From: Verrucomicrobiota bacterium
Lineage (GTDB): Bacteria > Verrucomicrobiota > Verrucomicrobiia > Methylacidiphilales > UBA1321
Assembly: GCA_013286145.1 (NCBI GenBank)
Contig: JABDGH010000008.1
Span: forward strand, 1 to 64,000
DNA: 64,000 bases
Direction of reading: 5' to 3'
Shown here: in pieces, positions 5,271-58,156 of the stretch
Layout: every line of letters starts with the position of its first letter
Numbering within the stretch: the stretch's first letter is position 1
Program-made: the position numbers and the translations under genes
The notes under the pieces: model-generated
Databases searched by the model: none
What the model saw: only the letters and a program-made list of their open reading frames with translations
What the model was told of the DNA's origin: nothing

Positions 5271-5414
5271 CGTCATCCCGAGCTTGTCGAGGGATCAGAC
5301 ACGGGTTGCCGATACACAAAAGCTGAAAAGTCGAAAAGAGATATTTCTTTCCGTCATCTCCTGCGAAATGTTTTTTCGGGAACGTGTCTGATCCTTCGAC
5401 AAGCTCAGGATGAC
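5271..5414. repeat. Palindromic intergenic element, copy A (long inverted repeat), between actB and actC
   Basis: Left arm 5271-5303 cgtcatcccgagcttgtcgagggatcagacacg; right arm 5383-5414 cgtgtctgatccttcgacaagctcaggatgac. Confidence 0.88.
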
Positions 5415-5473
5415 AGATTGAAGAAGTGAGAAATGGCAGATAACTTATGGATAAAATAACTGCCCTCCGCAGG

Positions 5474-11205: not shown

Positions 11206-11311
11206 CTGTCATCCTGAGCTTGTCGAAGGATCAGCTTCCAGAAAGTGAACGCTTCCAGCTAAAGATTTTTATTTGCCGGGGGCTGATCCTTCGACAAGCT
11301 CAGGATGACAG
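11206..11311. repeat. Palindromic intergenic element, copy B
   Basis: 30-nt perfect arms ctgtcatcctgagcttgtcgaaggatcagc / gctgatccttcgacaagctcaggatgacag. Confidence 0.92.
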
Positions 11312-16525: not shown

Positions 16526-16635
16526 CTCTGTCATCCTGAGCTTGTCGAAGGATCAGCCTCCGGTAAGCCTTGCACATATAAAAGAAAGTGTACGCTTTTG
16601 GGAGCTGATCCTTCGACAAGCTCAGGATGACAGAG
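16526..16635. repeat. Palindromic intergenic element, copy D
   Basis: ctctgtcatcctgagcttgtcgaaggatcagc ... gctgatccttcgacaagctcaggatgacagag. Confidence 0.92.
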
Positions 16636-20656: not shown

Positions 20657-20772
20657 CCGTTCCGTCATCCCGAGCTTGTCGAGGGATCAGCCCCCGACAA
20701 GCAATCACTTATAGAATAAAGCGTAGGCTTTCTGGATGCTGATCCCTCGACAAGCTCGGGATGACGGAACGG
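20657..20772. repeat. Palindromic intergenic element, copy E (longest perfect arms)
   Basis: 35-nt perfect arms 20657-20691 / 20738-20772: ccgttccgtcatcccgagcttgtcgagggatcagc; 46-nt loop. Confidence 0.95.
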
Positions 20773-27848: not shown

Positions 27849-27876
27849 CTGATCCCTCGACAAGATCGGGATGACT
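27849..27876. repeat. Half-copy of the palindromic element between divergent rho and purB
   Basis: ctgatccctcgacaagatcgggatgact, one substitution from the family arm. Confidence 0.75.
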
Positions 27877-53999: not shown

Positions 54000-54142
54000 T
54001 GTCATCCCGAGCTTGTCGAGGGATCAGACACGCTTTCGTTGTCCACCATGTCGGGCGAATACAGAAAGTCAGCTATCAGAGATTTTCCATTTTATTGCTT
54101 GTGCGGATACGTGTCTGATCCCTCGACAAACTCGGGATGACA
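54000..54142. repeat. Palindromic intergenic element, copy G
   Basis: 33-nt arms tgtcatcccgagcttgtcgagggatcagacacg / cgtgtctgatccctcgacaaactcgggatgaca with one mismatch. Confidence 0.92.
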
Positions 54143-58094: not shown

Positions 58095-58116
58095 GTCATC
58101 CCGAGCTTGTCGAGGG
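58095..58116. repeat. Half-copy of the palindromic element between btaA-like and btaB-like genes
   Basis: gtcatcccgagcttgtcgaggg. Confidence 0.75.
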
Positions 58117-58156
58117 GCTACCTCCTACGGCTTTGCCGTCGCTCGGAGAGCAACAG

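Follow-up and report, generated by a model that had tools for sequence, protein, structure and literature searches.

The closest described relatives of the repeats reported here are the CGTC-REPs (Di Nocera 2013, PMC3733652), a superfamily that includes the dRS3 repeats of Neisseria and the RPE-4 and RPE-6 repeats of R. conorii, and whose hosts include S. meliloti, A. lipoferum, N. aromaticivorans and Neisseria. They are described as hairpins with a stem of 8-9 bp and a loop of 4-5 nt, carrying at one end an unpaired tag (CGTC, TGTC or CCTC), and are stated to lack a dedicated transposase; GIY-YIG proteins are not mentioned in that work. A second system is formed by the REPINs with their RAYT, or TnpA-REP, enzyme (Bertels and Rainey 2011, PMC3116915; Nunvar 2010, PMC2817692), in which palindromes tagged GTAG or GTGG are paired into short non-autonomous units and the low-copy gene of an HUH/Y1 transposase is flanked by the same palindromes. 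Bacterial MITEs have terminal inverted repeats, reach high copy numbers and derive from coding elements by internal deletion. Stand-alone GIY-YIG proteins (UPF0213), finally, have been treated by Dunin-Horkawicz 2006 (PMC1564403).

The DNA analyzed here, referred to as the window, is a stretch of 64,000 nucleotides from a Verrucomicrobiota draft genome (GCA_013286145.1, contig JABDGH010000008.1, positions 1 to 64,000).

Repeat units of the window

The arm GTCATCCYGAGCTTGTCGARGGATCAG matches the window 11 times at up to 3 mismatches and not once in 100 dinucleotide shuffles, and five inverted arm pairs are present where 0 are expected (Table 1). These are the five pairs that a first-pass annotation had reported, all of which are confirmed by the arm matching. 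The arms had been given there as ~30-35 nt long; the pairs are real, but the conserved core has 27 nt, the rest being an outward extension of 1-8 nt in individual copies. The five copies had also been taken as a single family, but there are two dimer classes with unrelated spacers. The 101-102 bp class (starts 11208, 16530 and 20664) has 48-nt spacers, and spacer comparison bears out the proposal that B, D and E have homologous loops and that B is inverted relative to the other two; the 139-144 bp class (starts 5272 and 54001) has spacers of ~87 nt.

Table 1. Repeat features of the window, with their class and the C/T-G/A state of their arms.
Feature	Position	Strand	Class	Arm state	Details
Dimer	5271..5415	+	139-144 bp	mixed: left C/G, right T/A	
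Dimer B	11206..11311	-	102 bp	T/A	spacer reversed relative to D and E
Dimer D	16526..16635	+	102 bp	T/A	
Dimer E	20657..20772	+	102 bp	C/G	arms ~20657-20691 and 20738-20772; spacer ~20692-20737
Solo REP (single arm)	27849..27875	-			1 mismatch to the arm
Dimer	54000..54142	-	139-144 bp	C/G	extra substitution in one arm
Degenerate single arm	58095..58121	+			

Each arm is in itself an imperfect hairpin, in which the triplet past GTCAT pairs with the triplet ahead of AT, and this pairing holds in nearly all arms of the host genome, its relatives and other phyla, with C-G, T-A and G-C as replacements. A single arm forms 5 Watson-Crick pairs followed by a GA/GA step and folds weakly as DNA (-2.5 kcal/mol). 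Read as RNA, the window dimers form an almost perfect stem (-70 to -85 kcal/mol, z -9.5 to -13; -85.4 kcal/mol and z -12.9 for dimer E), and an Rfam search with the dimers gave no match. Outside the 27-nt arm, a consensus T-C-[C/T] stands ahead of GTC, with its complement past GAC; among the 48 dimers sampled in the host genome, the base preceding GTC on the left is C in 25 cases and T in 17, and its right-hand counterpart is G in 30 and A in 15.

The agreement of the C/T and G/A states between both arms, initially noticed in four copies, holds for four of the five window dimers and for 43 of the 48 sampled ones, the arms differing in the other 5. The Y-R pair covaries inside single arms too, hence the matched states partly reflect the arm's own hairpin. 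With the Y/R columns excluded, arms are 98.5-99.3% identical, versus 63% for the spacers of the 102 class and 55% for those of the 140 class, so the arms must be homogenized or constrained.

The paired copies of the window each consist of two [C/T]GTC-tagged REPs joined head to head and belong to the CGTC superfamily (head and tail are named following the text of PMC3733652), and dimer E is probably a non-autonomous copy. They display the terminal [C/T]GTC, a stem that starts with A-T and T-A pairs (GTC-AT...AT in the arms), a compact imperfect hairpin with a short tail, a prevalence of head-to-head dimers with several conserved spacer types, an intergenic location near 3' ends, and no transposase of their own (see below). 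They differ from the described CGTC-REPs in their tail, which is CAG instead of CCA, and in the GA/GA step that interrupts the stem; moreover, Verrucomicrobiota are not among the five phyla given for CGTC repeats in PMC3733652.

Genome-wide population and mobility

The host draft genome (2.33 Mb in 103 contigs, 66% complete) contains 233 arms. The dimer statistics rest on ~430 kb of stretches of this genome, which hold 48 inverted pairs, or dimers, and 16 single arms; the pairs belong mainly to the 101-102 bp and 139-144 bp classes, with a few at 80-95 bp and other lengths. The number of arms goes from 1 to 256 in congeners and from 0 to 154 in sister genera.

Orthologous sites were compared at the level of gene order, the nearest relatives being ~70-77% identical in DNA. 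There is no element between the orthologous genes at the 20664 site in relatives G005 and G006, the sites L051:3108 and L047:1015 are empty in G003 and G007, respectively, L051:4158 holds a different dimer class in G003, and the orthologous gene pair in G007 showed no counterpart of the 54001 dimer. In the most similar dimer pairs identity ends at GTCATCC...GGATGAC, and the flanks are unrelated. The hairpin population is thus real, mobile and very common. The first-pass view of a dispersed REP-like or MITE-like mobile family is upheld by these boundaries, by the variable copy number and by the empty or differently occupied sites; further copies abound, positions are not static and the loops can be aligned. 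Target-site duplications, which had also been proposed as a check, were not detected over 252 offset and length settings (best z 3.0, not significant).

Concerning their wider distribution, exact copies of the 25-nt arm occur in Verrucomicrobiota, Kiritimatiellota/Lentisphaerota, Bacteroidota, Bacillota, Fibrobacter, one alphaproteobacterium and candidate phyla. Only nine viral-contig stretches hold the exact arm, hence carriage by phages does not stand out as a main route. A search for the arm strings in the text of papers yielded chance matches only.

A small GIY-YIG nuclease gene between the arms

An all-against-all comparison of the genes round arms at 119 loci yielded one small family, a single-domain GIY-YIG nuclease, whose genes lie at distances of 0-41 bp from the arms in organisms unrelated to one another; in this neighborhood screen no family of transposases was repeatedly found next to arms. 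The host genome itself carries such an ORF between arms 1388+ and 1753- (L240, G000:C75). The arm-GIY-arm unit is ~390 bp long and comprises one stand-alone gene of 90-120 aa, with no intron, intein or NUMOD module as far as seen. PF01541 is detected in 13/13 nucleases, in which V-Y-I, Y-x-G, R28, H32, E66 and N85, positions of catalytic type, are invariant, and the PDB relatives are the UPF0213 structures 1ZG2 and 1YWL. The catalytic domain and its conserved positions are shared with GIY-YIG homing endonucleases and stand-alone UPF0213 proteins; unlike the genes of both, however, this one lies between inverted REPs and has non-coding derivatives that are dispersed.

The ends of the host unit L240 agree with the 102-class spacers at 11-12 of 18 positions, compared to 5.4 in shuffles (maximum 9.8) and to 4-5 for the 140 class. 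Those of L253, a unit of another species (G006), lean to the 140 class with a modest 8-9 of 18 positions, which suggests a link of that class to a master element. Also in G006, L245 is a unit similar to L253 with 140-class-like ends, and the identity between both stops at TCCGTCATCC...GGATGACGGA. The arm-GIY-arm unit therefore exists, is duplicated as a unit (in this one pair) and has ends in common with the non-coding dimers. Terminal and subterminal sequence is hence common to the dimers and to a putatively autonomous element, which makes the dimers MITEs in the general sense. They resemble bacterial MITEs in their terminal inverted repeats, their high copy number and their apparent origin by internal deletion of a coding element, and differ from them in that neither a DDE transposase nor a target-site duplication was detected.

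Two more GIY-YIG genes of the host genome, L247 (G000:C9) and L254 (G000:C37), have different or degenerate arms (GTCATTCCGAGCGAAGTCGAGGAATC and GTCATCCTGAGCGAAGGTGAGCC, respectively), suggesting several co-resident nuclease-REP lineages.

Association of nuclease and repeats across genomes and phyla

Within the host family, an inverted repeat (SW score of at least 34) flanks 14/19 small GIY genes, versus 0/12 control loci, mostly UvrC (Fisher p 9e-5), and 9/278 called genes (p 2e-14). Among plasmid and chromid GIY genes collected purely by protein similarity, 13/18 have flanking inverted repeats, mostly CGTC-tagged, and the flanked set includes genes of S. meliloti, A. lipoferum, N. aromaticivorans and N. 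gonorrhoeae. The N. gonorrhoeae gene has ATTCCC...GGGAAT repeats in its flanks, which we take to be of the dRS3 kind. In other arm-bearing phyla a strict inverted repeat was found at 6/29 loci, many loci having arms that are mixed or partial. The pairing of nuclease and arms reaches other phyla in which the arm sequences differ.

A tree of 85 GIY-YIG proteins groups 39 of the 42 sequences flanked by inverted repeats in one clade (99/99 support) of 57 members, which spans several phyla. Inverted repeats or tagged hairpins are present on both sides of 45 of these 57 members, and 12 have neither. Tagged hairpins on both sides occur in 31/57 clade members, versus 1/31 other GIY genes, 0/10 UvrC, 0/28 RAYT and 6/278 ordinary genes; the samples used to define the clade and to score its flanks overlap in part, so the p values serve as guides.

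The association is also visible at the level of whole genomes. Throughout 236 genomes of the class, the nuclease is carried by 14/20 of those with at least 10 arms and by 3/216 of the others (p 2e-15), and, counted by genus, by 8/11 versus 3/111 genera (p 3e-8). The 6 repeat-bearing genomes of the 20 with no close nuclease homologue detected include several incomplete drafts; in one genome (G147) with 50 arms no nuclease was detected. Two cases suggest arm-nuclease specificity: G010 has a second arm type, with 11 occurrences in that genome and 0 in eight others tested, and it is this type that flanks the second GIY gene of G010; in G025, the arm matches at three places in 2.8 Mb, and two of these adjoin the only nuclease homologue detected. 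A search of open-access papers for GIY-YIG together with REP, REPIN, MITE or palindromic elements returned nothing relevant.

Origin and spread of the dimers

Given the ends that they share, the dimers are probably non-autonomous derivatives of the arm-GIY-arm element. With somewhat less assurance, we favor the broader proposal that minimal elements of this kind, spanning phyla and consisting of a GIY-YIG gene between [C/T]GTC palindromes, generate and maintain the CGTC-REPs with neither transposase nor recombinase. The association between nuclease and repeat is a direct observation, and from it we infer mobilization by the nuclease. In such a process the nuclease would recognize its cognate arm, as hairpin or cruciform, and would nick or break DNA there; repair of the break could then carry arm-ended units to new sites, preferably A-tract/T-tract sites near gene ends. 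GIY-YIG nucleases hydrolyze DNA and to our knowledge do not join strands, hence the joining step would have to be supplied by host repair. If repair also converted arms repeatedly to one sequence, with the spacers left to drift, this would explain why arms are 99% and spacers 55-63% identical and why arm states match in most dimers.

The arm-GIY system would thus be functionally analogous to RAYTs with REPINs, achieved by an unrelated hydrolytic nuclease. Both arrange paired palindromes as short non-autonomous units and have a low-copy enzyme gene flanked by these same palindromes; they are set apart by the tag, [C/T]GTC here, and by the enzyme.

The main alternative is that the GIY-YIG gene is a homing parasite that inserts into already existing CGTC-REP dimers, with the arm or spacer as its target, the REPs being spread by some other process. 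This is in line with its membership of the homing-endonuclease family, with the label of homing endonuclease that PADLOC and PHROGs give to its relatives, and with the 1-5 nuclease copies per genome next to many dimers, and the availability of targets would equally produce co-occurrence at genome level. However, the G006 nuclease units lose identity at the outer ends of the arms and not at those of the gene; distinct nuclease copies go with distinct arm sequences, and the neighborhood screen showed no recurrent transposase beside the arms, RAYTs having palindromes of their own. We therefore regard the homing explanation as unlikely.

The next candidate is the RAYT itself, a Y1 HUH transposase that would move the dimers in trans as REPIN-like elements, in the way of GTAG-REPs; a Y1/RAYT or other transposase was also the partner that the first-pass annotation had suggested to look for. 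There are indeed two RAYTs in the host draft (~102.7 and 80.5 bits, NF047646 cut-off 80), and most relatives have them. Nevertheless, the host RAYT at L031 (G000:C2) is bracketed by GTGG-tagged palindromes CCCGGACAACTTGTTGTCCGGG at 555-660 and 1180-1235, and 0/30 family RAYT loci are flanked by an arm pair, most of them having GTAG/GTGG or other palindromes. In G001, five RAYTs coexist with a single arm, and over the 236 genomes RAYT presence relates weakly to arms (p 0.05). The RAYT was thus rejected as partner enzyme, the enzyme that does accompany the arms being the GIY-YIG nuclease, and mobilization by RAYT, largely refuted, is very improbable. The GTGG system at the host RAYT is a second REP system, which coexists with the CGTC one in the same genome and has separate palindromes.

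Some further palindromes were observed at RAYT loci. The CCCGGACAAC...GTTGTCCGGG palindrome of the host RAYT recurs in G002, both near a GIY gene (L237, G002:C136) and beside a split RAYT (L079, G002:C156). A third palindrome type, long and with no GTAG tag (CGTTCCCAAGTTGCACTTGGGAACG), flanks the RAYTs L057 and L067 of G007 and L060 of G006.

The dimers could also be static elements under selection, such as bidirectional terminators or mRNA stabilizers, with mobility playing a minor role. Their near-perfect hairpins would fit, as would arms far better conserved than spacers. An A-tract upstream and a T-tract downstream accompany them (at 3-10 nt, A makes up 46% and T 47%, versus ~25% farther away), with A4 in 18/48 and T4 in 16/48 dimers versus 6-7% in controls, and few dimers lie between divergent genes (5/44, p 0.011; genes were called by a simple codon-score method, gene distances being approximate). 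However, positions that are not conserved, with orthologous gaps empty or holding another class, a copy number of 0-256 in one family, and the unit boundaries in related copies make this explanation hardly credible. Tract-flanked hairpins near 3' ends may in addition serve as bidirectional terminators, a role compatible with mobility and possibly a by-product.

What is new for the CGTC-REPs is hence that their arms flank a small GIY-YIG nuclease gene, whose product is a candidate partner enzyme. Protein search by itself reveals the association in several phyla, and laboratory strains such as Sinorhizobium meliloti offer a direct way to test it. If our proposal of nuclease-driven spread is right, bacteria would possess RAYT-GTAG and GIY-YIG-CGTC side by side as palindrome systems whose enzymes are unrelated, and transposon-like dispersal would in the second case be powered by a nuclease that hydrolyzes DNA. 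Many small proteins that go only by 'GIY-YIG nuclease family protein' or by the misleading name 'excinuclease ABC subunit C' would then gain a possible function. Small GIY-YIG genes on Sphingomonadales plasmids (L302 and L305) are annotated under the latter, misleading name or as 'hypothetical protein'. On plasmid p1 of Planktothrix agardhii (L298), a clade member with tagged hairpins on both sides lies between the gene of an MmeI-type restriction enzyme and DISARM drmA.
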